Made by a program: the position numbers and the translations under genes. From Deroplatys truncata (lineage: Eukaryota; Arthropoda; Insecta; Mantodea; Mantidae): 64,000 nucleotides of DNA. The first letter of the stretch is position 1. Every line of letters starts with the position of its first letter. Shown here one piece after another: positions 3,898 to 57,473 of this stretch. The notes below the pieces were generated by a model that saw only the letters and a list, made by a program, of their open reading frames with translations, did no database searches and was not told the origin of the DNA. The stretch covers positions 48,420,067 to 48,484,066 of the forward strand of contig CM060983.1 in assembly GCA_030765065.1 (NCBI GenBank). The letters run 5' to 3'.

Positions 3898-4560
3898 TCT
3901 GATGTGTTACACTCACATGACTTTCTCTACTCTTGTACGAAATACTTTTACAAACTCTATATGCTTCATGTTAATCGAGATGTTAATCTTATTGCTAATT
4001 TTCTGATAGATGCAAGGGACATTGGTATGTTTTAAACGATAATCAAATATTTTAAGAGCTGGTTGCTATGTGGAGTATTCCATTCTCTTTGCATTACCAG
4101 GATCCCCCCCCAAATGAATAACGAATTTGCATTTGAGAAAAAGTGTAAGTATTGAAAAATTTAAGGGAATAACAAGCAATATCTCGAAAATGGTTCACAC
4201 AACAAAAAAAAATGTATATACGTAAACTGTGTATTTTAAAGCGATCTACATTTTTTGTGTAGTAAAATTTTGTCTATCTCTTATGGTTACCAGTTATGCA
4301 AAAGTCGTTCACAATGAAGAATACTTTTGGAGACATTCCCAGAAAATTCGAGATATACATCTTAAACATATGATATTTTAATCAAAATCGTTCTCGAAAT
4401 CATTTTTGAGAAAATTAAAATTTTGGAAAAATGTTCCATGTGAAGGGTAATCTGGGGAGAGGGGATTTTCTTGAAAACCATCGTGTCGCATCTCTGGAAG
4501 ATACTGAATCTAAATACCAAGTTTGGTATTTATCCGACTGTTCGTTTCTGAGTTATGCTG

Positions 4561-4600
<40 letters not shown>

Positions 4601-4729
4601 CATGTTTCCAAAAATGCTTTTTTTGGATTCAGGGTGCCTCAAAACATATATTTCCGGTGAAATCTTGGTACCGAATTTTTGGGTGGAATACAATAAATTC
4701 CCCTACTTACTATACGTAGTAAAGAAAGT
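3898..4729 (+). mobile_element. Family X copy 1 of a three-copy tandem array
   Basis: A full-length copy from TCTGATGTGTTACACTCACA to the 3' end TATACGTAGTAAAGAAAGT. It is followed by exactly AAAAA and then the start of the next copy. The (CA)n tract is at 4564-4597. It shares ACTTTCTCTACT with the family near its 5' end; the matching inverted sequence at the 3' end has one change. From about 4308 onward it is nearly identical to copy 2, while its left half differs from copy 2. Confidence 0.92.
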
Positions 4730-4734
4730 AAAAA

Positions 4735-5401
4735 TCTGATGTGCTACACTCACATGACTTTCTCTACTCTTGTGCAAACTATTTTTACAAACGTTTATTC
4801 TCCATATGCTTCATGTTAATCGAGATATCGAGATGTCAATCTTATTGCTAATTTTTTTGTAGATGCAAGGGGAATATGGTACGTTATAAGCGATAGTCAA
4901 ATATTTTAAGCGTTGGTTGCTATGTGACGCATTCCAATCTCTTTGCATGTTCAGGACATAAAAAAATGAATAACGAATTTGAGAAAAAGTATTATTGGAA
5001 AATTTAAGTGAATAACAAGCAATATCTCGTAAATGGTTGACTCTACAAAAAAAATGTATACGACATAAATTGTGTATTTTAACGCGATCTATATTTTTGT
5101 GCAGTAAAATTTTGTCTATCTCTTATGGTTTACCAGTTATGCAAAAGTGGTTCACAATGAAGAATACTTTTGGAGACAATCCCAGAAAATTCGATATACA
5201 TCTTAAACATATGATATTTTAATCAAAATCGTTCTCGAAATCATTTTTGAGAAAATTAAAATTTTGGAAAAATGTTCCATGTGAAGGGTAATCTGGGGAG
5301 GGGGGATTTTCTTGAAAACCATCGTGTCGCATCTCTGGAAGATACTGAACCTAAATACCAAGTTTGGTATTTATCCGACTGTTCGTTTCTGAGTTATGCT
5401 G

Positions 5402-5465
<64 letters not shown>

Positions 5466-5594
5466 CATGTTTCCAAAAATGCTTTTTTTGGATTCAGGGT
5501 GCCTCAAAACATATATTTCCGGTGAAATCTTGGTACCGAATTTTTGGGTGGAATACAATAAATTCCCCTACTTACTATACGTAGTAAAGATAGT
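4735..5594 (+). mobile_element. Family X copy 2 of the array (chimeric)
   Basis: Starts directly after the AAAAA junction with TCTGATGTGCTACACTCACA. The left half, up to about 5151, matches copy 3 in diagnostic changes (repeated ATCGAGATATCGAGATGTC; GGTACGTTATAAGCG; AAAAGTGGTTCACAATGA). The right half matches copy 1 (GTTCTCGAAATCATTTTTG; GGTGCCTCAAAACATATAT; TACCGAATTTTTGGG). The CA tract (5403-5462) is about 30 units, far longer than in copy 1. It is best explained as the product of unequal crossing-over between copies 1 and 3. Confidence 0.92.
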
Positions 5595-5599
5595 AAAAA

Positions 5600-6430
5600 T
5601 CTGATGTGCTACACTCACATGACTTTCTCTACTCTTGTACAAACTATTTTTACAAACGTTTATTCTCCATATGCTTCATGTTAATCGAGATATCGAGATG
5701 TCAATCTTATTGCTAATTTTTTTGTAGATGCAAGGGGAATATGGTACGTTATAAGCGATAGTCAAATATTTTAAGCGTTGGTTGCTATGTGACGCATTCC
5801 AATCTCTTTGCATGTTCAGGACATAAAAAAAATGAACAACAAATTTGAGAAAAAGTATAAGTATTGGAAAATTTAAGTGAATAACAAGCAATATCTCGTA
5901 AATGGTTGACTCTACAAAAAAAATGTATACGACATAAATTGTGTATTTTAACGCGATCTATATTTTTGTGCAGTAAAATTTTGTCTATCTCTTACGGTTT
6001 ACCAGTTATGCAAAAGTGGTTCACAATGAACACTTTTGGAGACATTCCCAGAAAATTCGAGATATACATTTCATTTGTCATGAAAATATCTTAAACATAT
6101 ATTTTAATCAAAATCGTTAGAGCCATTTTTGAGAAAATTAAAATTTTCGAAAAATGTTCCATGTAAAGGGTAGTCTGGGATGGGGGGATTTTCTTGAAAA
6201 CCTTTGTGTCGCATCTCTGGAAGATACTGAACCTAAATACCAAGTTTGGTGTTTATCCGACTGTTCGTTTTTGAGTTATGCTGTTCACAGACACACACGG
6301 ACATGTTTCCAAAAATGCTTTCTTTGGATTCAGGGGGATCTCAAAACATGTATTTCTGGTGAAATCTCGGTATCGAATTTTTTGGTGGAATACAATACTT
6401 CCCCTACTTACTTTACGTAGTAGAGAAACT
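5600..6430 (+). mobile_element. Family X copy 3 of the array
   Basis: Begins after a second AAAAA junction. It ends TACGTAGTAGAGAAACT, then AAAAA, then unrelated sequence. The CA tract is almost lost (CAGACACACACGG at 6287-6300). It differs from copies 1 and 2 on the right side in having TTAGAGCCATTTTTGAG and GGTATCGAATTTTTTGG. Confidence 0.92.
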
Positions 6431-6560
6431 AAAAATGCAAGTCAGTTGGGGGCTTCAATTCGTACCGGCATGTTGCCATGGTGCACTCGGTTCTATTTAT
6501 GCCATCATCGCAGCCTCAGGCAGCATTCTACTGACCTTCACAGGTGGAGTGTGGAAGAGG

Positions 6561-7735: not shown

Positions 7736-7812
7736 TCTGTTCTTGCATATCAAAACCTGTGTCAGTTGTTGAATAAAGAGCAGTGAAAGACATACTGGTA
7801 AGTAAAAAAAAA

Positions 7813-8649
7813 TCTGATGTGTTACACCCACATGACTTTCTCTAATCTTGTACAAACTATTTTTACAAACGCTTATTCTCCATATGCTTCATGTTAATCG
7901 AGATGTTAATCTTATTGCTAATTTTCTTGTAGATGCAAGGGGAAATGGTAGGCTTTAAGCGATAGTCAAATATTTTAAGAGCTGGTTGCTATGTGAAGTA
8001 TTCCATTCTCTTTGCATTACCAGAACCCCCCCAAAATGAATAACGAATTTCCATTTGAGAAAAAGTATAAGTATTGCAAAATTTAAGGGGATAACAAGCA
8101 ATATATCGAAAAGGGTTCACTCAACAAAAAAAAATAAAAAAAATGTATGACATAAATTGTGTATTTTAACGCGATCTACACTTTTAGTGTAGTAAAATTT
8201 CGTCTATCTCTTATGGTTTACCAGTTATGCAAAAGTCGTTCACAATGAATACTTTTGGAGACATTCCCTGAAAATTCAAGATATACATTTCATTTGTCAT
8301 GAAAATATCTTAAACATGTGATATTTTTATCAAAATCGTTAGCCATTTTTGAGAAAATTAAAATGTTCGACAAATGTTCCATGTAAAGGGTGGTGGTGGT
8401 GGGGGGATTTTCTTGAAAACCTTCGTGTCACATCTCTGGAAGATACTGAACCTAAATACCAAGTTTGGTGTTTATCCGACTGTTCGATTCTGAGTTATGC
8501 TGTTCACACACACACACACGGACATGTTTCCAAAAATGCTTTTTTTGGATTTAGGGGTCTCAAAACATATATTTCCGGTGACATCTCGGTATCGAATTTT
8601 TGGGTGGAATACAATACTTCCCCTACTTACTATACGTAGTAGTGAAAGT
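7813..8649 (+). mobile_element. Family X copy
   Basis: Inserted in an A-tract (left flank AAAAAAAAA). It starts TCTGATGTGTTACACCCACA and ends ACGTAGTAGTGAAAGT, followed by ACAAAA. It has a short CA tract (8505-8519). It belongs to the subfamily with GCTGGTTGCTATGTGAAGTA and CTTTGCATTACCAG in the left half. A G-rich expansion (GGTGGTGGTGGGGGG) replaces the usual CTGGGGTGGGGGG. Confidence 0.92.
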
Positions 8650-8913
8650 ACAAAAGTGTGTATGAAAGTAAGAGCATAAATATTGTAGCAAACATTCAGG
8701 TATGGAATGTACCCATAACCTCAGTTAATATGAACTATAATTTCTCATTGATAATACAATTCTAAATGAGATTATATATGTATATTCGTCTAACCATGTC
8801 AGAAAATTGAAGAACATAGCGATGCCCTACCACCTAACCTGTTTGACTGAAGTTGCAGGCTTGTTTCTAGAACAAGTGAGGAGTGGTATTTGAGGTAAGA
8901 TTTTTTCTAAAAA

Positions 8914-9753
8914 TCTGATGTGATACATTCACATGACTTTGTTACCCTCTATCGTTTATTAGTGGGTATACAAACTATTCTTACTAAAGGTTATTTTTAT
9001 ATCGACTTCATTTTAATCCAATTAAACCTTAGTAGAAATAGCTACATTACACGTTTCGTTACAGATACAAAGAGAACAGCGATAGTCACATGTTTAACAA
9101 CTGAATGCTATATGCTGGCCGTAAAATTCCATACTGTTCCATGACATCGCGAGAATGTTGAAAGGACTAAGAGAATGACCAATAACTGGACAATTTGTAC
9201 CTGTAATAACGGATATCTCAGAAACGGCTTATGCCACAAGAATTTATTTTAAATAAATCGGGTATTTTAAAAATACCTACATGTTTTTGTGTACTGCGTT
9301 TTCGTCTATCGCTTAACGTCTGCCAGTTATACAAGATTATACAAAACTCTTCCCGGACGATAGGATTTCATAGGTTATTCCTCGAAAATTCAAGATATAC
9401 ATTTTACTTTTCATGTAAATAGATGTATTATAGGTATTTTAATTTAAATCTTTAGAACAATTTTTAGATCAAAAATGTTCTATATAAAGGGGGGTTGGTG
9501 TGGGGGGTTATGTTGAAAATTTTGGTGTCCATCTTTGGAGGATATTGAACCTAAATACCAAGTTTGGTATTTATCCAATTTTTCATTTTTGAGTTATGCA
9601 GTTCACAGACACACACTTGTACGGACCTTTTTCTAAAAATGATTTGTTTGGATTCGGGGCCTCAAAACATGTATTTCCGGTAAAAACCCGGTATGGAATT
9701 TTTGGGTGGAATGCAATACCTTCTCTACCTTCTATGTATGTGGTAGAGAAAGT
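8914..9753 (+). mobile_element. Family X copy, older subfamily
   Basis: Starts TCTGATGTGATACATTCACA and ends TGTGGTAGAGAAAGT. It has the older-subfamily markers CTATCGTTTATTAGTGGGTA after the first inverted motif, CCATACTGTTCCATGACATC in the middle and CAGACACACACTTGTACGG near the dinucleotide site. The 3' palindrome is ACCTTCTATGTATGTGGTAG rather than the ACTATACGTAGT form. Confidence 0.88.
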
Positions 9754-9758
9754 AAAAA

Positions 9759-9877: not shown

Positions 9878-9883
9878 AAAAAT

Positions 9884-10268: not shown

Positions 10269-11137
10269 TCTGATGCGTTACACTCACATGACTTTCCCTA
10301 CTCTTGTACAAACTATTTTTACAAACGCTTATTCTCCATATGCTTCATGTTAATCGAGATGTTAACTTATTGCTAATTTTCTTGTAGATGTAAGAGGAAT
10401 ATGGTAGGTTTTAAGCGATAGTCAAATATTTTAAGAGCTGGTTGCTATGTGGAGTATTCCATTCTCTTTGCATTACCAGGACAAAAAAAAAACTGAATAA
10501 CGAATTCCCATTTGAGAAAAAGTATAAGAATTGGAAAATTTAAGGAAATAACAAGCAATATCTCGAAAATGGTTCACTCAACAACAAAAAATGTTTATGG
10601 CATAAATTGTGTATTTTAACGCGATCTACATTTTTTGTGTAGTAAAATTTTGTCTATCTCTTATGGTTTACCAGTTATGCAAAAGTCGTTCACAATGAAG
10701 AATACTTTTGGAGACATTCCCAGAAAATTCGAGATATACCTTTCATTTGTCCTGAAAGTATCTAAAATATATGATATTTTAATGAAACTCGTTAGAACCA
10801 TTTTTGAGAAAATTAAAATTTTCGAAAAATGTTCCATGTAAAGGGTAATCTGGGCTGGGGGGATTTTCTTGAAAACCTTCGTGTCGCATCCCTGGAAGAT
10901 ACTGAACCTAAATACCAAGTTTATTGTTTATCCGACTGTTCGTTTCTGAGTTATGCTGTTCTCTCTCTCTCTCTCTCACCCACACCCACCCACACACACA
11001 CACACTCGGACATGTTTACAAAAATGCTTTTTTTTGGATTCAGGGGGTCTCAAAACATATTTCCGGTGAAATCTCGGTATCGAATTTTTGGGTGGAATAC
11101 AATACTTCCCCTACTTACTATACGTAGTAGAAAAATT
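10269..11137 (+). mobile_element. Family X copy
   Basis: Starts TCTGATGCGTTACACTCACA and ends ACGTAGTAGAAAAATT. The dinucleotide site has turned into (CT)n followed by CACCCACACCCACCCACACA (10962-11008), showing how this site changes repeat type between copies. Confidence 0.92.
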
Positions 11138-16476: not shown

Positions 16477-17902
16477 TCTGATGTGTTGCACTCACATGAC
16501 TTTCTCTACTCTTATACAAACTATTTTAACAAACGCTTATTCTCCATCTACTTCATGTTAATCGAGATAAACATTTGCAGAAACTGTCTAATTGCTAACT
16601 TTCTTGGAGTGTTCCATTCTCTTTGTATGTACAGGACATAAAAAGAAAGAAAGAAAAAAAAAAGAATAACGAATTCCCATTTGAGAATATTGGAAAATGC
16701 AAATAAATAACAAGGAATATCTCGGAAATGGTTCACTCGAAGAAAAAAAAAAAGGGTTACCAGTAGTAGAAACGTTATTAAAAATGAAGGACTTTTAAGA
16801 TTATTCCCAGAAAGTTCAAGATATACATTTCATTTGGCATAAAAATATCTTAAACATATCGTATTTTAATCAAAATTGTTGGAGCCATTTTTGAGAAAAA
16901 AAAATTCGAAAAAGTTTCGATGTAAAGGGTAGTATTTTTTACTTTCTCTACTACGTATAGTAAGTAGAGGAAGTATTGTATTCCACCCAAAAATTCAATA
17001 CCGAGATTTCACCGAAAATACATGTTTCGAGACCCCCTGAATCCAAAAAAAGCATTTTTGGAAACATGTCGTGTGTGTGTGTGTGTGTGTGTGTCTGTCT
17101 GTGAACAGCATAACTCAGAAACGAACAGTCGGATAAACACTAAACTTGGTATTTAGGTTCAGTATCTTTCAAGGATGCGACACGAAGGTTTTCAAGAAAA
17201 TCCCCCCACCCCAGAGTACCCTTTACATGGAAGATTTTCCGAAAAGTTTAATTTTCTCAAAAATGGCTATAACGATTTTGATTAAAATATCATATGTTTA
17301 AGATATTTTTATGAAAAATAAAATGTATATCTTGAATTTCCCGGGAATGTTTCCAAAAGTACTCTTTACTGTGAACGACTTTTGCATAACTGGTGAACCA
17401 TAAGAGATAGACAAAATTTTACTACACAAAAAAATGTAGATCGCGTTAAAATACACAATTTGTATATACATTTTTTGTTGTTGAGTGAACTATTTTCGAG
17501 ATATTGCTTGTTATTCCCTTAAATTCTTCAATACTTATTTTCTCAAATGGGAATTCGTTATTCAATTTTTTGTCTTGGATATGCAAAGAGTATTAATCTG
17601 TGGCAAAGGGAATGGTGCTGCACCTAGCAACCAGCTATTAAGGGATATGTATGTGCTTAAAGGCTACTGTATTTCTATATTGCCCTTTTAAATATATATT
17701 CCCCTTACATCTACAAGAAAATTAGCAATAAGATAGAGCCTGCAAATGTTTATCTCGATTAACATGAAGTAAATGGAGAATAAGCGTTTGTATAAATAGT
17801 TTTTACAAGAGTAGAGAAAGTCATGTGAGTGTAACACATCATATTTGTTTTGGGGTGGAATGCAATACCTTCTCTATCTACTATGTACGTGGTAGAGAAA
17901 GT
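16477..17902 (+). mobile_element. Family X copy interrupted by a reverse copy
   Basis: The left part (16477-16934) begins TCTGATGTGTTGCACTCACA and ends at GTAAAGGGTAGTA. The right tail (17847-17902) resumes with TTGGGGTGGAATGCAATACC and ends ACGTGGTAGAGAAAGT. Between them lies a complete reverse X copy (16941-17843). About 200 nt of the outer copy, between the GGGTAG block and the GGGTGG block, is missing, so the insertion came with, or was followed by, a deletion. Confidence 0.82.
16941..17843 (-). mobile_element. Family X copy, reverse, nested
   Basis: Reads on the plus strand from ACTTTCTCTACTACGTATAG (its 3' end) to GAGTGTAACACATCATA (its 5' end), flanked by T-runs. GT tract at 17072-17094. 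It carries the subfamily block with GGCAAAGGGAATGGTGCTGC and CACCTAGCAACCAGCTATTA, shared with the copies at 22952, 24423, 26567, 48300 and 56598. Confidence 0.9.
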
Positions 17903-18008: not shown

Positions 18009-18597
18009 CTTATTTATTACATTTACAAGACTTTTCCAATTAACTATCGTTAATGCTTTTGTGGCTTCTATAAACTATTCTTACAAACCTTAGTTTTCTA
18101 ATATGCTTCATGTTTATTCAATAAACGCTTGCAGAAATTGTTTCATTATACATTTCGTTGTATGAACAAAGAAGTTACAGAATACTAAAGCGATAGTAAA
18201 ATGTTTAAAAATGGTTCGCCTTGAAATGCCATACTGTTTCCATGACATCGCGAGAAACAAGTGATTCAAAAAATAACAAAGCATTGAAGCAACCAAAGCA
18301 ATACAAACGACTAGTTCGAAAATGGCTGATACCACAAAAAGTTATTTGGAATAAATTCTGTATTTTAAGGATATGCAATTTACATTTTTATGTAGTAAAA
18401 ACTTCTGTTTCTCTCTTGTGATTTGCCAGTTTATACCTATTTCCTTCAGAATGAAGAGGACTTCACAGGATAATTCCAGAAAATTTAAGATAAAATTTTT
18501 ATTAGCCATTAAACATAATATATTTTAATCAAAATTATTAGGTCCATTTGGGAAATTCAAAGATAATGAAAATTTTTATAGTAAAGGGAATGAGGGG
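18009..18597 (+). mobile_element. Family X copy, old, 3'-truncated
   Basis: Starts TCTTATTTATTACATTTACA, an eroded family start, and follows the older-subfamily order (CTTCATGTTTATTCAATAAA, CATACTGTTTCCATGACATC). It stops at about 18597 where a second, 5'-truncated copy begins. Confidence 0.75.
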
Positions 18598-19093
18598 ACA
18601 TAAATTGTGTACTTAAACGAGATCTGCATTATTTTTGTAATAAGATTTTGTCCATCTCTTACGGTTTACCAGTTATACAAAAGTAATTTAGAATGAACTG
18701 GATTTTACAGGCTATTCGCAGAAAATTCAAGATATGCATTTTATTCGGCAGAAAATATCTCAAACATATGGTATTTTAATCACATTCGTTAGAGCCAGTT
18801 TTGAGAAAATAAAAAATAATGAAAAATGTTCCGTATAATTAATAATTTGGGAGTGGGGGAATTTTCTTGAAAATCTTCATGTCGTATTCTTTGAAGACAT
18901 TGAACTTAAATACCAAGCTTGGTATTTATTTTCGCGAGAGATATCCTGCTCGCGCGCACCAACTTTTTTTTCCAGAAATGCTTTTTCTTTATTCAGAGGG
19001 CTTTAAAACTGTATTTACGATTAAATTCCATCTAATTTTTCGGTGCAATGCAATTCTTCCTCCTACCTACTGCGTGTAGATGGTAGAGAAAGT
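18598..19093 (+). mobile_element. Family X copy, 5'-truncated
   Basis: Begins in mid-element (ATAAATTGTGTACTTAAACG) and runs to the 3' end GTAGATGGTAGAGAAAGT. The dinucleotide tract has been reduced to CGCGCGCACC. Confidence 0.75.
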
Positions 19094-22951: not shown

Positions 22952-23682
22952 TCTGATGTGTTACACTCACATGACTTTCTCTACTCTTGTACAAACTATT
23001 TTTACAAACGCTTATTCTCCATCTACTTCATGTTAATCGAGATAAACATTTGCAGACTCTATATTATTGCTAATTTTCTTGTAGATGTAAGGGGAATATA
23101 TATTTACAAGGGCAATTTGGAAATACAGTAGCCTTTAAGCATATACACATCTCTTAATAGCTGGTTGCTAGGTGCAGCACCATTCCCTTTCCCACAGATT
23201 AATACTCTTTGCATATCCAAGACAAAAAAATGAATAACGAAATCCCATTTGAGAAAATATTGAAAAATTTAAGGGAATAACAAGTAATGTCTCGTAAATG
23301 GTTCACTCAACAAAAAAAATATGACATAAATTGTGTATTTTAACGCGATCTACATTTTTTGTGTAGTAAAATTTTGTCTATCTCTTATGGTTTACCAGTT
23401 ATGCAAAAGTCGTTCATAATCAAGAATACTTTTAGAGACATTCCCAGGAAATTCAAGATATACATTTTATTTGCCATAAAAATATCTTAAACATATGATA
23501 TTTTAATCAAAATCGTTAGAGCCATTTTTGAGAAAATTAAAATTTTCGAAAAATCTTCCATGTAAAGGGTAATCTGGGGTGGGGGGATTTTCTTGAAAAC
23601 CTTCGTGTCGTATCCTTGGAAGATACTGAACCTAAATACCAAGTTTGGTGTTTATCCGACTGTTCCTTTCTGAGTTATGCTG

Positions 23683-23721
<39 letters not shown>

Positions 23722-23862
23722 ACACACACACGGACCTGTTTCCAAAAATGCTTTTTTTGGATTCAGGGGGTCTCAAAACATATATTTCCGGTGAAATCTC
23801 GGTATTGAATTTTGGGGTGGAATACAATACTTCCCCTACTTACTATACGTAGTAGAGAAAGT
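22952..23862 (+). mobile_element. Family X copy
   Basis: Full length, from TCTGATGTGTTACACTCACA to ACGTAGTAGAGAAAGT, in an A-tract (left flank GAAAAAAA). It carries the GGTGCAGCACCATTCCCTTT subfamily block (about 23170-23215). CA tract at 23686-23730 with one GA interruption. Confidence 0.93.
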
Positions 23863-24422: not shown

Positions 24423-25153
24423 TCCGATGTGTTGCATTCACATGACTTTCCCTACTCTTGTACAAACTATTTTTACAAACGCTTATTCTCCATATGCTTC
24501 ATGTTAATCGAGACTCTTATCTTATTGCTAATTTTCTTGTAGATGTAACGGGAATAAATATTTACAAGGGCACTATAGAAATACAGTAGCCTTTAAGCAC
24601 ATACATATCTCTTAATAGCTGGTTGCTAGGTGCAGCACCATTCCCTTTCCCACAGATTAATACTCTTTGCATATCCAAGACAAAAAAATGAATAACGAAT
24701 TCCCATTTGAGAAAATAAGTATTGAAAAATTTAAGGGAATAACAAGCAATATCTCGAAAATGGTTCACTCAACAAAAAACGTATACGACATAAATTGTGT
24801 ATTTTAACGCGATCTACATTTTTTGTGTAGTAAAATTTTATCTATCTCTTATGGTTTACCAGTTATGCAGAAGTCGTTCACAATGAAGAATACTTTTGGA
24901 GACATTCCCAGAAAATTCGAGATATACGTTTTATTTGTCATGAAAATATCTTAAAAATATGATATTTTAATCAAAATCGTTAGAGCCATTTTTGAGAAAA
25001 TTAAAATTTTCGAAAAATGTTCCATGTAAAAGGTAATCTTAGGTGGGGGGATTCTCTTGAAAACCTTCGTGTCGCATCTCCGAAAGATACTGAACCTAAA
25101 TACCAAGTTTGGTGTTTATCCGACTGTTCGTTTCTGAGTTATGCTGTTCACAG

Positions 25154-25184
<31 letters not shown>

Positions 25185-25311
25185 CATGTTTCCAAAAGTG
25201 CTTTTTTGGATTCAGGGGGTCTCAAAACATGTATTTCCGGTGAAATCTCGGTATCGAATTTTTGGTTGAAATACAATACTTCCCCTACTTACTATACGTA
25301 GTAGAGAAAGT
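24423..25311 (+). mobile_element. Family X copy
   Basis: Starts TCCGATGTGTTGCATTCACA after an A-tract and ends ACGTAGTAGAGAAAGT. CA tract at 25154-25180. It has the GGTGCAGCACCATTCCC subfamily block. The following AAAAAGCATTTTTAG is the interior of a reverse X copy, so this copy may be inserted in that one. Confidence 0.92.
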
Positions 25312-27405: not shown

Positions 27406-27412
27406 TTTTTTT

Positions 27413-34346: not shown

Positions 34347-34347
34347 T

Positions 34348-37102: not shown

Positions 37103-37927
37103 TCTGATGTGTTACACTCACATGACTTTCTCTACTCTTGTACAAACTATTTTTACAAACGCTTATTCTCCATATGCTTCATGTCAATCGAGATGTTAAT
37201 CTTATTGCTAATTTTCTTGTAGATGCAAGGGGAATTGGTAGGTTTTAAGCGATAGTCAAATATTTTAAGAGCTGGTTGCTAAGTGGCGCATTCCATTCTC
37301 TTTGTATGTCCAGGACATAAAAAAAATGAATTAACGAATTCCCATTTGAGATAAAGTGTAAGTATTGGAAAATTTAAGGGAATAACAAGCAATATCTCGA
37401 AAATGGTTCACTCAACAAAACATTGTATATGACATAAATTGTGTATTTTAACGCGATCTACATTTTTTGTGTAGTAAAATTTTGTCTATCTCTTATGGTT
37501 TACCAGTTATGCAAAAGTCGTTCACAATGAAGAATACTTTTGGAGACATTCCCAGAAAATTCGAGATATGCATTTCATTTGTCATGAAAATATCTTACAC
37601 ATATGATATTTTAATAAAAATTTTCGATTAATGTTCCATGTAAAGGGTAATCTGGGGTGGAGGTATTTTCTTGAAAACCTTCGTTTCGCATCTCTGGAAG
37701 ATACTGAACCTAAATACCAAGTTTGGTGTTTATCCGACTGTTCGTTTCTGAGTTATGCTGTTCACAGACAGACAGACAGACAGACACACACATGGACATG
37801 TTTCCAAAAATGCTTTTTTTGGATGATTCAGGGGGTCTCAATACATGTATTTCCAGTGAAATCTCGGTATCGAATTTTTGGGTGGAATACAATAATTCCC
37901 CTTCTTATTATACGTAGCAGAGAAAGT
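37103..37927 (+). mobile_element. Family X copy
   Basis: TCTGATGTGTTACACTCACA to the decayed palindrome TTATACGTAGCAGAGAAAGT. It is flanked by A-rich sequence on both sides (ATAAAATAA | AAAAATAAAAT), showing insertion into an A-rich target. The dinucleotide site is (CAGA)n then CA (37766-37790). Confidence 0.92.
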
Positions 37928-39091: not shown

Positions 39092-40647
39092 ACTTTCACT
39101 ACCACGTAGAGAAGGTATTGCATTCCATCCATAAATTCTATCCCGGATTTCACTGTAAATACATGTTTTGAGGTCACCTTAATTAAATAAAAACATTTTT
39201 AATTTCTCTACTACGTATTGCATTCCACCCAAAAATTGATACCGAGATTTTAAAGGAAATATATGTTTTGAGGTACCATAATCCCAATAAAGCATTTTTG
39301 GAAACATGTTCGTGTGTGTATGTGAACAGCATAATTCTAAAACGAAAAGTCGGATAAATACCAACCTTGGTATTTAAGATTAGCATCTTCCAAGGATGCG
39401 TCACGAAGATTTTCAAGAAAATCCCCCCCCACCCCAGACTACATGTAACATGGAACCTCTTTCGAAAATTTTGATTTTTTAAAAAATGGCTAACGATTTT
39501 GATTAAAATGTCGTATTTTAAGATATTTTCATGATAAATAAAATGTATATCTTGAATGTTCTGGGAATGTCTCCAAAAGTATTCTTCATTGTGGACGACT
39601 TTTGCATAACTGGTAAACCATAAGAGATAGACAAAATTTTACTACACAAAAATGTAGATCGCGTTAAAATACGAACCATTTCCGAATTATTCCTTGTTAT
39701 TTGTTTACATTTTCCAATACTTATACTTTTTCTCAAATGGCAATTCGTTATTCCTTTTTTTATGTCCTAGATATGCAAAGAGAATGGAATACTCCACATA
39801 ACAACCAGCTCTTAAAATATTTGACTATCGCTTAAAGTCTAGCAATTCGCCTTGCATCTACAAGAAAATTAGCAATAAGATTGACATCTCGATATCTCGA
39901 TTAACATGAAACATATGGAGAATAAGCGTTTGTAAAAATAGTTTGTACAAGACTAGAGAGTGCAACACATAAGCTTTTTACAAAAAGGTCCGTGTGTGTG
40001 TGTGTGTGTGTGAACGGCATAACTCAAAAACGAAAAGCCGGATTAAATACCAAACTTGGTATTTAAGTTCAGTACTATTCAAAGATGCGACGCGAAGTTT
40101 TTCAAGAAAATCTCCCACCCCAAATTACCCTTTACATGAAAGATTTTTTAGAAATATTATATTTTCTAAAACATGTCTCTTTTCTGGCATAAGCTTGTGA
40201 AGTCCTCTTCATTCGGAACGAATTTTGTATAACTAGTAAACGTTGGGCCAAAACGTATCACACACAAAAAATATAGTTATCTTTAAAATGAACAATTTAT
40301 TTCAAATATCTTTGTGGCATTGGAAATTTCCGATATAACCGTTATTAATGCTTCAATTTGTTCAATACTTTTATTTTTCTTTATAAACCTCATTGATTTT
40401 CAATTGTTTTTTTACGATTGCATAGAATCAGTATGGGATTTTAAGATTAGTACATAGCGTCTTAAACGTTTGACCATCGCTGTTCTCTTTGCATTAAGTG
40501 TACATGCGTTATATAGCCGTTTCCGTCAATGTTTATCTCGATTAAAATGAAGTAAATAGAAAGATAAACTTTCGTAAAAATAATTTGTATACTCACTAAT
40601 AAACGATAGAGGGTAGAGAAAGTTATGTGGATGTAAAATATCATAAA
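39092..40647 (-). mobile_element. Family X copy, reverse, split by a nested reverse copy
   Basis: The 3' end is at 39092-39197 (ACTTTCACTACCACGTAGAG to ATAAAAACATTTTT). The remainder at 39979-40647 begins ACAAAAAGGTCCGTGTGTGT and ends at the 5' end GTAAAATATCATAAA. The older-subfamily markers (TAATAAACGATAGAGGGTAG) are present. The two parts are continuous when 39202-39973 is removed. Confidence 0.85.
39202..39973 (-). mobile_element. Family X copy, reverse, nested
   Basis: Inserted in the GCATTTTT|AGAAAAAGG site of the outer copy. Its own 3' end has a small deletion (TCTCTACTACGTATTGCATT lacks the AGTAAGTAGGGGAAG part). Its 5' end reads GTGCAACACATAAG. Confidence 0.85.
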
Positions 40648-40679
40648 TTTTTTCACTCTTTTCTGGTGGTCATACATAG

Positions 40680-40889
40680 AGAACTATATTTAGCTCTCAC
40701 AAGCTCTTAAAAGGTTTGAATATCGCTCAAGCTAATTGTATTCCCTTATTTTCAGTGTATCTATAAGGTAATACGTAATAAAATCATTTCTGCAAATGTT
40801 TATCTCGATTAATTTTTTAAGAACAGTGAGTTGAAGAATGGGTCAAAGTCATGTGAATGTGTTATAAGACTTTATAAAAAATTAATTAA
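40680..40889 (-). mobile_element. Family X 5' part, reverse, old
   Basis: TTAGCTCTCACAAGCTCTTA, GTTTGAATATCGCTCAAGC and GCAAATGTTTATCTCGATTA are family blocks. The 5' end is TCATGTGAATGTGTTATAAG. It is the counterpart of 38640-38971. Confidence 0.7.
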
Positions 40890-41861: not shown

Positions 41862-42528
41862 ATACAGTATTACATTCACATGACGTTCTCTACCCATTAT
41901 TCTACAAACTATTCTTATAAAAATCTTTTTTTTTCAATCCACTTTTTTGTAAATCGAGATATACATTTGTAGAAATGCTTTGATTACATGCTTCGTCACA
42001 GGTAAAAGAGAAATACAGAGGCTGAATTGATAGTCAAAAATCTTTAAAGAAAGAAGACAAAAAAATCGATTTAGCACTTTAAAAACTATAACAGTTTAAA
42101 AATTCAAGAAAATAACCAAAAATAACTCGGAAGAGGTTAATGCCACGAATATTTTACTTTGGCATTAATTGTGTGCTTTAGCGAGATCTATATTTTATCA
42201 TTAGCAAGTTTTTGACTATCTCTTATCAATTATACAAAATTATGCAACATTCATTCCGAAAGAAGCGGGCTTCACAGAGTATTTGTAGAAAATCCAAGAA
42301 AGGCATCTTATTTGTTATTTAAGTATCTTAAACATGTGGTATTTTAACAAAGAAATTTTGAGATATTTTGAGAAAATAAAAAATAACAAGAAATGTTCCA
42401 TGTAAAGGTATGAGGGGAATTTTATTCAAAATTCTTCTTGTTACATCCCCGGAATATGTTGAGCTTAAATACAAAAATTGGTATTTAACCAAATTTTCAT
42501 TTTTTAGTCATGCTGTTCACACACACAA
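41862..42528 (+). mobile_element. Family X copy, old, 3' end lost
   Basis: TATTACATTCACATGACGTT at the 5' side, AGATATACATTTGTAGAAAT, GAAGCGGGCTTCACAGAGTA, ending at the dinucleotide site (TTCACACACACAACTGG). Confidence 0.75.
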
Positions 42529-43020
42529 CTGGTCAAGTTAGGAGATAGACGAAAACGCACTATAAAAATGTAGATCTCTCCAAAACATGCAATTTATTTC
42601 AAATAACTTTATTGTGGTGTAAACCATTTCCGAGATATTCGTTGTTAATGGTTCGAATTGTTCAACACTTCGTCATCCCTTTCAAGTCCTGACAGTTTTC
42701 ATTTCTTTCTCGCAATTGCATGGAAAGAATGTGGAATTTTAAGGCCAGCATACCGCGTCCAGTTCTTAAGCACGTGACTATCGCTGTTCTTTTTGTATCT
42801 GTAATGAAATGTGTGAAGTAGCTGTTTCTGCAAAGGTTTATCTCGATTAAAATCAAGAACTTAGATAGAAAAGTAGGCTATCTTAACAATAATGTGTATA
42901 CGTATTAATAAACGATAGAGGGTAGAGAAAGTAACACATCAGATTTTTTACTTTCTCTACGACCGAAAAATTCGATATTGAGATTTCGCCAGAAACACCT
43001 TTTTAGGTCCCTGACTGATT
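42529..43020 (-). mobile_element. Two reverse family X pieces joined head-to-tail
   Basis: The first piece (42529-42943) is an older-subfamily 5' half ending GAGAAAGTAACACATCAGA. It lacks the GTCATGTGAGT segment between the inverted motif and the terminus. After six T residues the second piece (42950-43020) begins with a 3' end, ACTTTCTCTACGACCGAAAA. On the minus strand this is a 3' end–A-run–5' end junction, as in the 3898-6430 array. Confidence 0.72.
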
Positions 43021-43766: not shown

Positions 43767-44706
43767 ACTTTCTCTACTACGTATAGTAAGTAGGGGAAGT
43801 ATTGTATTCCACCCAAAACTTTTGATGTCGAGATTTTGCCAGAAATACATGTTTTGAGGCCCCTGAATAAAAAAATCTGATGTCTTACACTCACATGACC
43901 TTCTCTACTCTTGTACGAACTATTTTTACAAACGCTTATTCTCCATACGCTTCATGTTAATCGAGATGTTAAACTTATTGCTAATTTTCTTGTAGATGTA
44001 AGGGGAATATGGTAGTTTTAAGCGATAGTCAAATATTTTAAGAGCTGGTTGCCATGTGGAGTATTCCATTCTCCTTGCATTACCAGGACAAAAAAAATGA
44101 ATAACAAATTTGAGAAAAAGTATAAGCATTCGAAAATTTAAGGGAATAACAAGCAATATCTCGAAAATCGTTCACTCAAAAAAAAGTATGTGACAAATTG
44201 TGTATTTTAACGCGATCTATATTTTTTGTGTAGTAAACTTTTGTCAATCTCTTATGGATTACCAGTTATGCAAACATCGTTCACGATGAAGAATACTTTT
44301 GGATACATTCCCAAAAATTCAAGATATACATTTCATTTGTCATGAAAATATCTTAAACATATGATATTTTAATCAAAATAGTTAGAGCCATTTTTGAAAA
44401 AATTAAAATTTTCGAAAAATGTTCCATGTAAACGGTAATATGGGGTCGGGGATTTTCTTGAAAACCTTCGTGTCGCATCTCTGGAAGATACTGAACCTAA
44501 ATACCAAGTTTGGTGTTTATCCGACCGTTCGTTTCTGAGTTATGCTGTTCACAGACACACACACACACACACACACGAGCATGTTTCCAAAAATGCTTTT
44601 TTTTGGATTCAGGGGGTCTCAAAACATATATTTCCGGTGAAATCTCGGTATCGAATTTTTGGGTAGTGGAGAAAGTAAAAAAACATTTTTAGAAAAAGGT
44701 GTATGA

Positions 44707-44745
<39 letters not shown>

Positions 44746-48299: not shown

Positions 48300-49190
48300 A
48301 CTTTCTCTACTACTTATAGTAAGTAGGGGAAGTATTGTATTCCACCCAAAAATTCGATACCGAGGTTTCACGGAAATATATGTTTTGAGTCCCCTGAATC
48401 CAAAAAAAACATTTTTGGAAACATGTCCATGTGTCTGTGTGTGTGTCTGTGAACAGCATAACTCAAAAACGAACAGTCGGATAAACACCAAACTTGGTAT
48501 TTAGGTTCAGTATCTTCCAGAGATGCGACACGAAAGTTTTCAAGAAAATTACCTCACCCCAGACTACCCTTTACATGGAACATTTTTCAAACATTTTAAT
48601 TTTCTCAGAAATGGCTCTGGCGATTTTTATTAAAATATCATATATTTAAGATACATTCATGACAAATAAAATGTATATCTTGAATTTTCTGGGAATGTCT
48701 CCAAAAGTATTCTTCATTGTGAACGACTTTTGCATAACTGGTAAAACCTAAGAGATAGACAAAGTGTTACTACACAAAAATTTAGATCGCGTTAAAATAC
48801 ACAATTTATGTGATATACATTTTTTTATTGAGTGAACCATTTTCGAGATATTGCTTGTTATTCCCTTAAATTTTTCAATATTTATTTTCTCAAATGGGAA
48901 TTCTTATTCATTTTTTTGTCTTGGATATGCAAAGAGTATTAATCTGTGGCAAAGGGAATGGTGCTGCACCTAGCAACCAGCTATTAAGAGATACGTATGT
49001 GCTTAAAGGCTACTGTATTTCTATATTGCCCTTGTAAATATATATTCTCCTTACATCTACAAGAAAATTAGCAATAAGATAGCGTCTGCAAATGTTTATC
49101 TCGATTAACATGAAGTAGATGGAGAATAAGCGTTTGTAAAAAATAGTTTGTACAAGAGTAGAGAAGGTCATGTGAGTGTAACACATCAGA
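48300..49190 (-). mobile_element. Family X copy, reverse, complete, part of a composite insertion
   Basis: ACTTTCTCTACTACTTATAG to GTGTAACACATCAGA, with the GGCAAAGGGAATGGTGCTGC block. Its 5' end abuts another X fragment across a T-run, as at 27405. Confidence 0.9.
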
Positions 49191-49416: not shown

Positions 49417-49460
49417 TTTTATTTTTGCTGGAATACAACACACTGTAGGCGTGCAAAAAC

Positions 49461-50353: not shown

Positions 50354-51078
50354 TCTGATGTGTTACACTCACATGACTTTTTCTACTCTTGTACAAACTA
50401 TTTTTACAAACGCTTATTTTCCATATGCTTCATGTTAATCGAGATATCGAGATGTTAACCTTATTGCTAATTTTCTTGTAGATGCAAGGGGAATTGGTAG
50501 GTTTTAAGCGATAGTCAAATATTGTAAGAGATGGTTGCTATGTGGAGTATTCCATTCTCTTTGTATTACCAGGACAAAAAAAAATGTATAACGAATTCCC
50601 ATTTGAGAAAAAGTATAAGTATTGGAAAATTTAAGGGAATAACAAGGAATATCTCGAAAATGGTTCACTCAACAACAAAAAATGTATGTGACATAAATTG
50701 TGCATTTTAACGCGATCTACATTTTTTGTGTAGTAAAATTTTGTCAATCTCTTATGGTTTATCAGTTATGCAAAATTCGTTCACAATGAAGAATAATTTT
50801 GGAGACATTCCCAGAAAATTCGAGATATACATTTCATTTGTCATGAAAATATCTTAAACATATGATATTTTAAACAAAATCGTTAGAACCATTTTTGTGA
50901 AAATTATAATTTTCAAAAAATGTTCCATGTAAAGGGAAATTTGGGGTGTAGGGATTTTATTGAGAACCTTCGTGTCGCATCTCTGGAAGATACTGAACCT
51001 AAATACCAAGTTTGGTGTTTATCCGACTGTTCGTTTCTGAGTTATGCTGTTCACAGACACACACATACGCACACGCGT

Positions 51079-51118
<40 letters not shown>

Positions 51119-51190
51119 GGACATATTTCCAAAAAATCGAATTTTTGGGTGGAATACAATACTTCCCTACTTACTATACGTAGTAGAGAA
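50354..51190 (+). mobile_element. Family X copy with deletion before the 3' end
   Basis: TCTGATGTGTTACACTCACA to ACGTAGTAGAGAAAAAT. A segment of about 55 nt (normally TGCTTTTTTTGGATTCAGG through GAAATCTCGG) is missing between CCAAAAA and TCGAATTTTTGGG. Long CA tract at 51055-51117. Confidence 0.9.
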
Positions 51191-51191
51191 A

Positions 51192-52262
51192 AATGTTATT
51201 TGAAATAATTTGTATATTTTAAAGAGATCTACGTTTTTTGTGTGGTGCGTTTTCGTCTATAGCTTAACGTTTACCATCTAAGCAAGATTATATTAATTTT
51301 CTTCCGATTCAAGACGACTTGACAAGCTATTCCCAAAAATCAAGATATACATTTTTCTTTGTCTTATAAACATCTTTAATATATATTATTTTAAACAAAA
51401 TCGTTAAGAGCTATTTTTTTAGAAAATCAAACATTTCGATAAATGTTCCACGTAAGGGGAAGTTGGGATGGAGGAATTTCTTGAAAATCTTCGTGTCACA
51501 TCTTTGGAAGATAATGAGAATAAATACCAAGTTATTATCCGATTTTTCGTCTTTTAGTTATGCTCTTCACAGGCATGTACACATAAACACACTCCCACAC
51601 GGACCTTCTTCTAAAATTTTTTTTTTCGGTTTAGGGGCCTCAAAGCATATATCTCTGGTGAAATCTCGACATCAAATTTTTAGGTGGAATACAATAGCTA
51701 CCCTACTTACTATACGTAGTACCGAGAGGAATGGCTCAGGCGGTAACGTCTGTGGGAGTTCGGGAGTTCGTGGGTTCGATTCCCGTGGCCAACCTTCCTG
51801 ACCCATGGATTTTTTCGGGGTTTCTCCGGGTCGCTAGGCAAATGCTGGAAAGGTTCAGTACATCCCCGAATTTCCTGTCCCTTCATTTCACCTCCGTTCT
51901 CATTTCATTTGACGTTTCACCTGCTTGGTCTGTTTCAGGATTGAAAGTGTCGGCCGGAGTCTCGACGTTGCATAGCAGGGGAAAAGGGCGTTCTATGTAA
52001 CCCTTTGTCCCCCGGAATGGAGGCGGTCTCCAAGTCTAGGGGTCCCTCAGTAGGATGCGTGAACCTGCAGGGGGAGGGGAGCCAGTATCACCAGCTGCCA
52101 TCTGGGGAGTTTGAATCTGTAAAAGGTGACCATGCCGCCTGGTCCGGCCGCCCTTGTCTGCTCTCACCTCGTCAGAGGCTGAGGCACAAAAGATGTTGCA
52201 ATTCGAGGTGCTAAGTGCCCCTCCGTAACTATCCTACTCCTACTATACTTAGTAGAGAAAGT
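51192..52262 (+). mobile_element. Old family X copy, 5'-truncated, split by a SINE
   Basis: X blocks from ATTTGAAATAATTTGTATAT to CTACTTACTATACGTAGT (51720), resuming at 52242 with ACTATACTTAGTAGAGAAAG. The interruption is exactly one SINE plus a 12-nt target duplication placed in the 3' palindrome. Confidence 0.85.
51721..52241 (+). mobile_element. tRNA-derived SINE, family S1, copy 2
   Basis: Head ACCGAGAGGAATGGCTCAGG, B box GTGGGTTCGATTCCCGTGGC, then GGATTTTTTCGGGGTTTCTC and a body of about 430 nt, ending with TAACTATCCTACTCCT. Flanked by ACTATACGTAGT (51709-51720) and ACTATACTTAGT (52242-52253), a 12-nt target duplication with one mismatch. Same family as 15308-15822 and 61921-62412. The head shows the internal polymerase III promoter boxes. 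Confidence 0.92.
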
Positions 52263-54263: not shown

Positions 54264-54284
54264 ACAATATTACCATCAATTTAA

Positions 54285-54650
54285 GATAGCAGACAGCCGA
54301 AGATGTCCCTGTGATACTCGACAAAAAACGGTAGACCACATTCTCTACGATTGTAAAGGCTGAAATGTGAAAGAGAAACATTTGTAAAAATCTCAAGAGG
54401 TGGAAAGCGGCCAGTGCAGGAGGAAATGGTTAAAAAGAGCTTTCAAAAAATTGTTAATTCTATAAACTTTGAATTACTGTAGAACTAGCTATAGATATAG
54501 ATAAATTGTAAGTCTTATAACCTTATAGATCACAAAATGTAAATGCAAACTTAAAAGCATTTTGTAAATCATGTATCGGAATCTATCAAGCATGTAGTAT
54601 TACAAAGTCTATAATGGAATGTGCGCTAATAAAGGCTTTAAAAACACGCG
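54285..54650 (+). mobile_element. LINE 3' end (non-LTR retrotransposon)
   Basis: Reads FKIADSRRCPCDTRQKTVDH and ILYDCKG then a stop. This is the cysteine/histidine-containing C-terminus ('CPC......TVDHIL..C') of Jockey/RTE-type polyproteins. The 3' UTR follows, with GCTAATAAAGGC as a possible poly(A) signal. Everything upstream of the last ~30 residues is absent. Confidence 0.7.
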
Positions 54651-54757
54651 CGCGCGCGGACCTTTCTCTAAAAATGCTTTTTTGGATTCAGGCAGCTTCA
54701 AAACATGTATTTCCGGCGAAATCTCGGTATCAGATGCAATACTTTCTCTACCTACTA

Positions 54758-56008
54758 CAAGGCAGTCCCAGAAGTACCCGACCTAACGTACATATAGCGG
54801 TTGTTGTTTCAAACAAATGACTATGGTAGAAAGTACCACCCTTATAAAGCTTAAGTTTTAAGTTTGACAATGCTACATTGTTCAGTAATTGTTTGGCAGC
54901 CATTAATAGCGAATACTCTTAGTGAATTTGTAAACATGGATAAAACTGTCATCGTTATGTGATACAATACTTTCATTTGAAAGGTCTTAGTCCAATTAAT
55001 GTTAAAGCTGGGCTAGATTCTACTCTGGGGGAGTCTGCTCCTTCGTTTACAACAGTAAAATATTGGGTGATAGAGTTTAAGCGAGGCCGTACAAGACAAG
55101 ACGAACATCACATGAGGTGACCACGCCAGAAATTTTGAATAAAATCCACAAAATGGTATTGGATGACCGTCGACTGAAAGTGCACGAGTTAGCAGACATC
55201 GTAGGCATTTCAAAAAGTGCTATACATCGAATACACTGAAAATTTATGCATGAGAAAGCTGTGCGCAAAATGGGTGCCGCGTTTACTCACAATGGAACAG
55301 AACTAGCGTCGTGAGGATGTTTCGCTGCAATAAAGCCTAGTTTTTGCGTAAATTCATAACCATGGACGAAACATGGGTCCATCACTTCACACCTGAGATG
55401 AAGGAACGGTCAAAAAAGTGGACTGAAAGGCGAGAATCAGCTCCAGAGATGACGAAGACAGTTCCATCTGCAGGCAAGGTCATGGCGTTAGCTTTTTTGG
55501 GATGCATGTGGGATAATTTTCATTGATTATATTCAGAAAGGAAAAGCAATCAATGGCGAGTATTATGCGAGCTTATTGCAGCGTTTGAATGATGAAATCA
55601 AGCAAAAATGGCCGCATTTAGCGAAAAAGAAAGTTCTGTTTGATCAAGACAATGCAGCAGTTCACACATCTATTATCGTCATGGCTAAAATCAATGAGTT
55701 AAAGTTCGAATTGCTTCCTCATGCACACTATTCGCCAGGCTTAACCCACTCTGATTATTTTCTGTTTCCAAAGTTGAAGAAATGGCTTGGTGGTAAAAGA
55801 TTTGCCAACATTGAAGAGCTGGAGTTTGCAGTTGATGACTATTTTGCAGAACTAGACGGTTCTCACTATAAACAGGTTATCGAAGCTCTTGAGCATTGCT
55901 AGGAAAAGTGTATCGAGCTGAAAGGAGACTATGTAGAGAAATAAAGATGCCTTTTCCCAAATGTTTGTGTTTTCTTTGTTAGGTCGGGTACGTCTGGGAC
56001 AGCCCTCG
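54758..56008 (+). mobile_element. Mariner element 2, full length, inactive
   Basis: 1251 bp, flanked by TA (54756-54757, 56009-56010), inserted in the 3' palindrome of a family X copy. Terminal repeats: CAAGGCAGTCCCAGAAGTAC and, on the other strand at the right, CGAGGGCTGTCCCAGACGTA. Both run on as CCCGACCTAAC, so they are better conserved than those of copy 1. Closely related to 20808-22084 over its whole length. Confidence 0.95.
54936..55944 (+). pseudogene. Mariner transposase pseudogene 2
   Basis: The N-terminus (MDKTVIVM in a shifted frame) is disrupted. The first catalytic Asp is at 55365-55367 (TMDETWVHHFTPEMKER). The second is LFDQDNAAVHTS at 55648-55650, with Asp intact, unlike copy 1. 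The third is THSDYFLF at 55753-55755, again 35 codons on. SPGLTHSD replaces the usual SPDLAPSD, and EALEHC is followed by a stop where copy 1 reads EAIEHRWEK. Several frameshifts and stops make it non-functional. Confidence 0.92.
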
Positions 56009-56035
56009 TATCTACGTGGTAGAGAAAGTAAAAAT

Positions 56036-56597
56036 ACAGCTTGCAATCTATAATCTTGCGGAACGTGGAATTTCTTGAAGCTTAGTGAGACTGAACCTTG
56101 TATCTCATGTTATTACACACATGGCTTAACGAAAGGTTATAATATACTTTATGGTTTAACACTCTTGTTATCTTGTAGTACAAACAAGCTGATAATTCCA
56201 GCGGAACGTCGAGAGGCAGAGAGGCTCCCACTTCGCACACAGTGCAATACAGTGAAGTTAAAACTTTAACAGCACTGGGCTGGCAAACAACATCGTGATA
56301 AGTGCTCGAGGTTTCCATGCTTTTTGTTTATATTTCACAAGTTGAGCAGCACTGTCTTATTTCGTCTATGACTGTCAGAAAACCGCAATGCGGCAGGCAG
56401 GTTTCGAGATATTATGTTTTGCAAATGCTGTATTACCGTAAAAAAGTTATTTTTAGACACTTGGTTCTAAAAGTAGGGTTTTTAACACGAGCCGCTCGTA
56501 CTAGAAATTGAAGATTATAATACTGTGCAATACAAGTTTTATAACACTCCATTGTTATCACCAGGGCCAGGTTTTATTGGCGTTTGTTTTAAAAAAA
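56036..56597. other. Unassigned sequence
   Basis: No element ends or domains recognised. It ends in the A-tract of the next X copy. Confidence 0.35.
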
Positions 56598-57473
56598 TCT
56601 GATGTGTTACACTCACATGACTTTCTCTACTCTTGTACAAACTATTTTTACAAACGCTTGTTCTCTATCTACTTCATGTTAATCGAGATAAACATTTGCA
56701 GACTGTTTTATTGCTAAGTTTCTTATAGATGTAAGGGGATAATATATTTACAAGGGCAATTTGTAAATACAGTAGCCTTTAAGCACATGCATATCTCTTA
56801 ATAGCTGGTTGCTAGGTGCAGCACCATTCCCTTTCCCACAGATTAATACTCTTTGCATATCCAAGACAAAAAATGAATAGCGAATTCCCATTTGAGAAAG
56901 TATTGAAAAATTTAAGGGAATAACAAGCAATATCTCGAAAATGGTTCACTCAACAAAAAACTGTATATAACATAAATTGTGTATTTTAACGCGATCTAAA
57001 TTTTTTGTCTATCTCTTATGGTTTACCAGTTATGCAAAAGTCGTTCACAATGAACACTTTTGTAGACATTCCCAGAAAATTCAACATATACATTTTACTT
57101 GTCATGAAAATATCTTAAACATATGATATTTTAATCAAAATCGTTAGAGCCGTTTTTGAGAAAATTAAACTTTTCGAAAAATCTTCCATGTAAAGGGTAT
57201 CCTCGGGTGGGGGGATTTTCTTGAAAACCTTCGTGTCGCATCCCTGGAAGATACTGAACCTAAATACCAAGTTTGGTGTTTATTCGACTGTTTGTTTCTG
57301 AGTTATGCTGTTCACAGACAGACACACACACAGACACACACTCGGACATGTTTCCAAAAATATTTTTTGGGATTCAGGGGGTCTCAAAACATGTATTTCC
57401 GGTGAAAACTCGGTATCAAATTTTTGAGTGGAATACAATACTTCCCCTACTTACTATACGTAGTAGAGAAAGT
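56598..57473 (+). mobile_element. Family X copy
   Basis: TCTGATGTGTTACACTCACA to ACGTAGTAGAGAAAGT, in an A-tract (left TTTTAAAAAAA). It has the GGTGCAGCACCATTCCC block. A small deletion removes part of the GTGTAGTAAAATTTTGTC block (about 57000). CA tract interrupted by GA (57316-57340). Confidence 0.93.

Follow-up and report, generated by a model that had tools for sequence, protein, structure and literature searches.

The window analysed here is a 64,000-nucleotide stretch of the Deroplatys truncata genome (C9:48420067-48484066, from an assembly of 4.29 Gb in 818 contigs), and much of it consists of copies of one repeat family, which we call X, a non-coding element with a unit of about 0.85 kb. 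We are confident that X is a Helentron-associated element (HINE), i.e. a non-autonomous deletion derivative of a Helentron, that its partner resides in the same genome, and that packages of nested elements are mobile as well. We further favour, with rather less assurance, a scheme in which a T7 tract within X serves as docking site for both Helentron and X, the resulting nests are mobilised from their outer 5' end, the autonomous lineage keeps gaining X termini, and the dominant intact Helentron lineage is itself a composite with a second 5' end taken from X.

A first-pass annotation of the window had proposed that X is a non-autonomous element associated with Helentrons and driven by a Rep/helicase element outside the window with the same termini. 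Such a partner was found by genome search. At least 152 matches to Helitron_like_N were obtained (150 of 291 candidates scored), and ten loci (R1 to R10) were read with 20 kb around each. Four of them (R1, R2, R9 and R10) are of the Helentron type, with a Rep carrying YYQRVEFQMRGSPHEH (RGSPHxH motif), in agreement with the Helentron Rep signature (F/Y)xR...ExQxRG-S-PHxH, the canonical type being RG-L-PHxH (PMC4067079). All four are bracketed by X, whose 5' and 3' ends lie roughly 5 kb upstream and downstream of Rep, respectively, and the elements bounded in this way are about 10 kb long. As a control, when up to 4 mismatches were allowed, none of the canonical loci R3 to R6 (RGLPHAH) combined the 5' end of X upstream with its 3' end downstream. 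No Rep motif hit was obtained in R7 and R8; X copies lay only upstream in R7, and R8 is surrounded by X pieces of either orientation in such number that bracketing is uninformative there.

Domain searches covered one partner frame of 2,387 aa (P0001, 2,354 aa of it searched). As in Helentrons, a Rep domain of the HUH type (Helitron_like_N, PF14214, E 4.5e-28) and a PIF1-type helicase (PF05970, E 2.8e-28) are joined in a single protein, which also contains Herpes_teg_N and DUF6570; its helicase part matches Helraiser (7lcc, E 4.8e-22). The C-terminal 236 aa match Exo_endo_phos_2 (PF14529) with 28.3 bits, barely above the cut-off of 27.4, which agrees with the AP-type endonuclease of Helentrons. 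Near the N-terminus of P0001 (residues 67-212; L009:2-7063:-) lies a deubiquitinase domain of the herpesvirus tegument type (PF04843, E 1.3e-8), already published for Helentrons (PMC9741609). The partner frame also holds a long array of charged 21-aa repeats (R2 7786-8962, 63-bp period), and several of the open frames have lengths a multiple of 21 aa apart (2324, 2345, 2387, 2408), which does not hold for others. Beside the Helentron, a second, canonical Helitron lineage (RGLPHAH, R3-R6) is present in this genome, its best matches having stops inside the Rep domain.

The two ends of X resemble those of the partner. Positions 1-762 of X align with the partner's innermost 5' end at 87-91% identity in R1, R2 and R10, only X 1-314 aligning in R9 (89%), and the last 33 bp of X are 94-97% identical to the partner's 3' end. 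With regard to the identical subterminal inverted repeat of at least 11 bp that characterises HINEs, the partner's 5' repeat is ACTTTCTCTACT, identical to that of X, and its 3' repeat, TGTAGAGAAAGT, has 11 contiguous bp in common. X is therefore described as a non-coding deletion derivative whose 3' part is explained in part only, and its targets are T-rich and probably lack a target site duplication at the paralogous sites inside X.

The structural features listed in the first-pass annotation, namely fixed ends, an asymmetric inverted repeat, a palindrome, an internal microsatellite and oligo-A flanks, were all recovered by motif scans of the window, where at up to 3 mismatches the motif then named 5' matched 22 times, the 3' motif 20 times and the 20-nt palindrome 16 times. 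ACTTTCTCTACT lies about 22 nt inside one end of X and its inverted copy forms the extreme opposite end. In Helitron2 the inverted repeat stands at or near the extreme 5' end and overlaps a 5' hairpin, the 3' repeat lying 20-30 bp inside, ahead of a 3' hairpin (PMC3627910), and mite HINEs have a similar layout, with 38-60 bp, and T-rich targets (PMC4067079). X fits this layout only when read opposite to the direction first assigned, so that its polarity has to be reversed and the end formerly named 3' is the true 5' end; the Rep gene of the partner runs in the corrected direction. In true polarity X reads TTTTT-ACTTTCTCTACTACGTATAGTAAGTAG ... AGTAGAGAAAGTC-ATGTGAGTGTAACACAT-CAGA-TTTTTTT. Its 5' hairpin folds with a z of -3.2 (3 of 200 shuffles as good), and (CA)n arrays occupy the internal microsatellite site in at least six copies. 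A T run of five or more is found on at least one side of all 16 near-full-length copies in the window and on both sides of nine. Canonical Helitrons (Helitron1) begin with 5'-TC, end with CTRR-3' and have no terminal inverted repeats; X, with ends (T)n-ACTTTCTCTACT and CAGA and with inverted repeats, does not match them.

Several observations weigh against the assignment of X to the HINEs. Compared with the partner's own 3' ends (R1in, R2in, R9, R10a, R10b), X matches at no more than 38-39 of 60 bp (at 31-32 of the final 34), so a simple deletion does not explain its 3' part; against the outer 3' ends of R1 and R2, both composites, 58-60 of 60 bp agree. The 3' hairpin is weak, since 39 of 200 shuffles fold equally well (z -0.9), its ATGTG/CACAT arms being present, and the usual T5-ACTTT left end is absent from the copies starting at 48300 and 50354. 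A PDB search with the partner's C-terminal endonuclease stretch gave no meaningful match. Finally, the evidence comes from one assembly, with no transposition observed and no orthologous empty site seen.

X is short, non-coding, present in high copy number and provided with inverted repeats, and mariner/Tc1-type DDE transposase remnants are present in the window, as might be expected of a miniature inverted-repeat transposable element (MITE) or foldback-type element driven by a DDE transposase. We nevertheless regard this origin as extremely improbable. The inverted repeats are asymmetric, one of them lying about 22 nt inside; the sites studied showed no constant target duplication, although pure T-runs alone cannot exclude one; and the coding elements identified as bearing X ends specify Rep, helicase and endonuclease. 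DDE elements with X ends were not encountered, no genome-wide search for them having been made. On the strength of the X-bounded Helentrons, the asymmetric repeats and the lack of a constant duplication at the sites studied, the DDE-driven MITE was rejected and X retained as a HINE.

The abundance of X was estimated with a profile built from the 16 near-full-length copies. In the window X amounts to 58 pieces and 42.1% of the sequence, as compared with about 43% and about 40 pieces in the first-pass annotation. A shuffled window (n = 1) gave no hits with the same profile. Identity to the X majority sequence is 92.5-95.2% in 15 of the 16 copies and 71.7% in the remaining one (8914-9753). In the 4.29-Gb genome a 27-mer of the true X 5' end occurs exactly 146,881 times, the reversed 27-mer, used as control, not once. 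The seven exact occurrences in the window correspond to 1 per 9.1 kb, as compared with 1 per 29.2 kb genome-wide, i.e. an approximately threefold enrichment. Scaling the window's 42% by this density ratio suggests, as a rough inference and not a measurement, that X makes up something on the order of a tenth of the genome. Pattern scans for the X end in viral contig and genome contig collections returned 0 loci.

Since X holds T7 tracts, its copies act as thousands of known targets. The empty-site comparison was made at two X-internal, hence paralogous, T7 sites (Table 1); joining of flanks by BLAST over 264 kb gave few usable empty sites, and the paralogous empty site of the R9 copy is an imperfect T-rich stretch in which the junction could not be fixed. 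At site 1, 2,420 left and 914 right junctions were counted genome-wide. Among the matches listed, the left linker was T5 in 56/100, T6 in 33/100 and TTTATT in 4/100, the right one T7 in 44/100 and T6 in 19/100. Site 2, GTTATTCA-T7-GTCTTGG, was found 39,736 times empty, with 18,928 left and 4,609 right junctions in the genome; among the matches listed T5 prevailed on the left (81/100), and T7 on the right (56/100) and in the empty site (65/100). At both sites the right-hand side thus keeps the T-run of the target intact, and the left-hand side gains 5-6 T's. The flanking oligo-A/T, taken in the first-pass annotation for a duplication of A residues, is thus real, but judging from these junction sequences it probably consists of T's borne by the element.

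A target site duplication of 5-6 bp, foreign to the element, would account equally well for left T5 and right T7 in pure T-runs, yet it appears unlikely in view of the interrupted runs. At site 1 a G within the run was seen in 8/100 right linkers vs 0/100 left ones among the matches listed (Fisher p = 0.007), and the TTG-interrupted form occurs genome-wide 24 times on the right and never on the left; one of 19 left-right pairs matched by distance has TTGTTTT on the right and T6 on the left. Site 2 gives a weaker picture, the run opening with an A in 4/100 empty sites vs 0/100 left linkers among the matches listed. The unusual linker TTTATT recurs at unrelated sites, like an inherited end (4 of 34 5' ends in the sequence read, besides its 4/100 listed at site 1), as expected if the oligo-T is part of the element. 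On the other side, the 24 TTG junctions may be copies of fewer events, and among the matches listed at site 2 TTGTT, which a duplication could give, was the left linker in 1/100 and TTTGTTT the right linker in 2/100. HINEs have been described as leaving the target unmodified and carrying a variable number of T's (PMC4067079). The junctions of X agree with this view and specify in addition on which side the T's are gained and how many.

Head-to-tail X junctions number 7,844 genome-wide, T5 being the commonest linker (50/100 among the matches listed); in the window one such tandem, X-A5-X-A5-X, spans 3898-6430. These arrays may stem from rolling-circle read-through or circular dimers, for which the abundance of the junctions and their prevailing T5 linker speak and to which we give a somewhat less than even chance, or from insertion beside an existing X, which at the left edge of the T-run following X yields an identical T5 linker. 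As both origins give T5, the data do not separate them. Separately, four head-to-tail X junctions with an exact period of 2,481 bp (C1 19824423-19831895) perhaps represent a young higher-order tandem array. X 5' ends also occur as mirror-image doublets, 443-478 bp apart and facing outward from a middle part of 4.3-9.5 kb, in at least four places (Table 1), and these may belong to a long inverted-repeat element that recurs in the genome and includes X ends.

Insertion of X into its own T7 tract at site 2 is frequent, as the counts of right junctions and empty sites given above indicate, and the Helentrons bear its traces. Three of the four partner loci have multiple 5' ends, 622-685 bp apart (two in R1, four in R2, two in R9; one in R10). 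Each extra 5' unit consists of X from position 1 to 636-638 and ends at the X T7 tract, from which we infer same-orientation insertions into the T7 at 633-639, which in R2 reach a depth of three. Additional 3' ends, spaced 222-231 bp, occur in R1 and R2, in units containing X 764-911. R10 167-1385 is a plain X-in-X nest at site 2, with X 632-762 resuming beyond the inner 3' end; the second 3' end of R10 (15321) is not of the nest type.

R1 and R2 have in common an unusual nest junction with a T4 linker, in composites with differing flanks. A 36-mer across this junction occurs at 30 places in the genome, two of them 1.4 kb apart, and 15 of the 30 lie 4.6-5.7 kb upstream of a Helentron Rep on the same strand, about 0.0007 being expected by chance (42 Rep matches considered). 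Among the matches listed, 12 of the 18 Rep matches whose frame reaches 2,000 aa or more have the T4 junction, so that most of these would descend from one composite. The differing flanks show that the composite moved as a unit in R1 and R2, and it probably did so at the remaining places. At site 2, i.e. in same-orientation nests, correction for anchor conservation leaves left junctions 4.9 times as frequent as right ones (2.9-8.1), and with the same correction the opposite-orientation nests of site 1 show no left excess (0.87; 0.42-1.84). An excess in same-orientation nests only is what one expects if mobilisation begins from the outer 5' end and runs no further than the first 3' end, and R9 is an element of this kind, having two 5' ends but a single 3' end. 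It has to be set against this that each corrected estimate is based on 11-57 sites.

Repeated independent insertion into a favoured T7, or segmental duplication, might also produce recurrent nest junctions. The T7 tract is indeed a frequent target, and flanks were read at only 2 of the 30 T4-junction places. Such an origin is nonetheless quite improbable, considering that a 36-mer with an unusual T4 linker is common to 30 places and to two thirds of the listed long-frame copies, that R1 and R2 carry it in different flanks, and that the left excess is confined to same-orientation nests. Composite mobilisation accordingly remains our preferred reading, and nesting has been proposed before as the origin of multiple Helitron termini in maize and Fusarium (PMC3288121, PMC5148889).

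The following mechanism can be proposed. The Rep of the partner would nick within the oligo-T upstream of the 5' end, taking T5-6 along, the helicase would strip off one strand as far as a 3' end, and the endonuclease would open T-runs in the target. At the two X-internal sites studied, X lies at the 5' edge of the run, which is kept whole. Because X carries T7 tracts of its own, its copies receive insertions of both X and Helentron, and where these nest in the same orientation, in the T7 at 633-639, elements with several 5' ends result. Mobilisation of these may begin at the outer 5' end and often end at the first 3' end. One nest junction being common to most listed long-frame autonomous copies and to two copies at unrelated sites, the nest moves as a unit.

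The coordinates of the X copies and of other features are given in Table 1. The transposase remnants of the window (21487-22020, 55492-55902, 63157-63897, 2740-3174 and 59165-60303) were recognised by the models PF01359, PF13358 and PF01498, which we take to indicate the mariner/Tc1 type; at 2740-3174 PF01498 matches weakly (E 0.0012, short of the cut-off). A marginal tRNA match at 58288-58360 (-), with 29.2 bits vs a threshold of 29 and none by ARAGORN, is perhaps a tRNA-derived repeat.

Table 1. X copies, termini, T7 target sites and related features. Positions refer to the window unless C1 is indicated; strands of X copies follow the true (Helentron) polarity.
Feature	Coordinates	Strand	Basis
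Site 1, internal T7 tract, CCAAAAATGC-T7-GGATTCAGG when empty; target of opposite-orientation nests	23752..23758	+	X copies in 264 kb
Site 2, internal T7 tract, X positions 633-639; target of same-orientation nests	23224..23230	-	junction counts
True 5' terminus of reference copy: 5' inverted repeat ACTTTCTCTACT overlapping 5' hairpin	23836..23862	-	motif scan, folding
True 3' terminus of reference copy: 3' subterminal inverted repeat AGTAGAGAAAGT, ATGTG...CACAT hairpin arms, CAGA	22952..22985	-	motif scan, folding
X copy (HINE), opening a head-to-tail tandem whose linkers are 5-nt oligo-T/A	3898..4729	-	profile of X copies, flank reading
X copy, tandem	4735..5594	-	X profile
X copy, tandem	5600..6430	-	X profile
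X copy	7813..8649	-	X profile
Diverged X copy, 72% to majority	8914..9753	-	X profile
X copy	10269..11137	-	X profile
X copy within older X-related copy (16477-16933 + 17848-17902)	16941..17843	+	X profile
Reference copy of X (911 bp), with TTTATT for T5 on its left	22952..23862	-	flank reading
X copy	24423..25311	-	X profile
X copy nested in internal T-tract of another X (remainder 27406-27811)	26567..27405	+	X profile, flanks
X copy	35071..35907	+	X profile
X copy	37103..37927	-	X profile
X copy, opposite-orientation nest in X 43767-45397, site AAAAATG-T-ATTCAGG	43876..44676	-	X profile, flanks
X copy without T's on left side	48300..49190	+	X profile, flanks
X copy, first bases altered (TTTTTCTC for ACTTTCTC); adjoins X-derived piece 51190-51728	50354..51193	-	X profile, flanks
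X copy	56598..57473	-	X profile
X-derived fragment, older	18597..19093	-	X profile
X-derived pieces, older (n = 2)	33657..35048	-	X profile
X-derived pieces, older, clustered	39203..40860	+	X profile
X-derived pieces, older, both orientations	41867..43014	.	X profile
Mirror-image X doublets	C1 8177204-8187678; 13833720-13843072; 22028069-22033235; 26123580-26132928		among matches listed

These data connect a repeat that is very abundant in a 4.29-Gb genome with an identified Helentron partner, whose family, having many long open frames, is also a convenient point of departure for an assay of Helentron transposition. With thousands of insertions available in a sequence that is known, light also falls on the side of the extra T's and on the question of duplication, which PMC4067079 left open, and self-nesting provides a genome-scale, internally controlled case for the origin of multiple-terminus Helitrons by nesting followed by composite mobilisation. 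No match for the target rule at genome scale, for self-nesting at one site or for the wide occurrence of a single composite was found in the open-licence literature, which leaves most subscription journals out of reach.

Among known systems, X is closest in kind to the HINEs, including DINE-1 (INE-1), and their Helentrons, which according to Thomas et al. 2014 (PMC4067079) have 12-bp (sub)terminal inverted repeats in common with a Rep/helicase/AP-endonuclease partner, hairpin arms, a microsatellite and T-rich targets with no duplication found, and are deletion derivatives. X differs from that description by the target T-run left whole with T5-6 added on the left and by abundant nesting in its own T7, and its partner by the tegument-type deubiquitinase domain and the 21-aa repeat array. 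The oyster Cg_HINE likewise has subterminal inverted repeats, a microsatellite and T-rich sites without target duplication, and carries satellite-like tandem arrays, which X does not (PMC7492417). Helitron2, as presented by Bao and Jurka 2013 (PMC3627910), resembles X in the extreme 5' inverted repeat overlapping a hairpin, in the 3' repeat 20-30 bp from the end before the hairpin arms and in insertion after T's; the C-terminal endonuclease match sets the X partner apart from it and places it with the Helentrons. The VTD-containing Helentrons (PMC9741609) combine Rep, helicase and AP-endonuclease with a herpesvirus-tegument-like deubiquitinase, a likeness to the X partner in domain match alone. 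Lastly, in the Fusarium FoHeli and the maize Helitrons extra termini are explained, as here, by nested insertion and subsequent mobilisation of the composite (PMC5148889, PMC3288121); X adds one defined T7 nest site counted genome-wide and one composite junction present in most of the listed long-frame copies.

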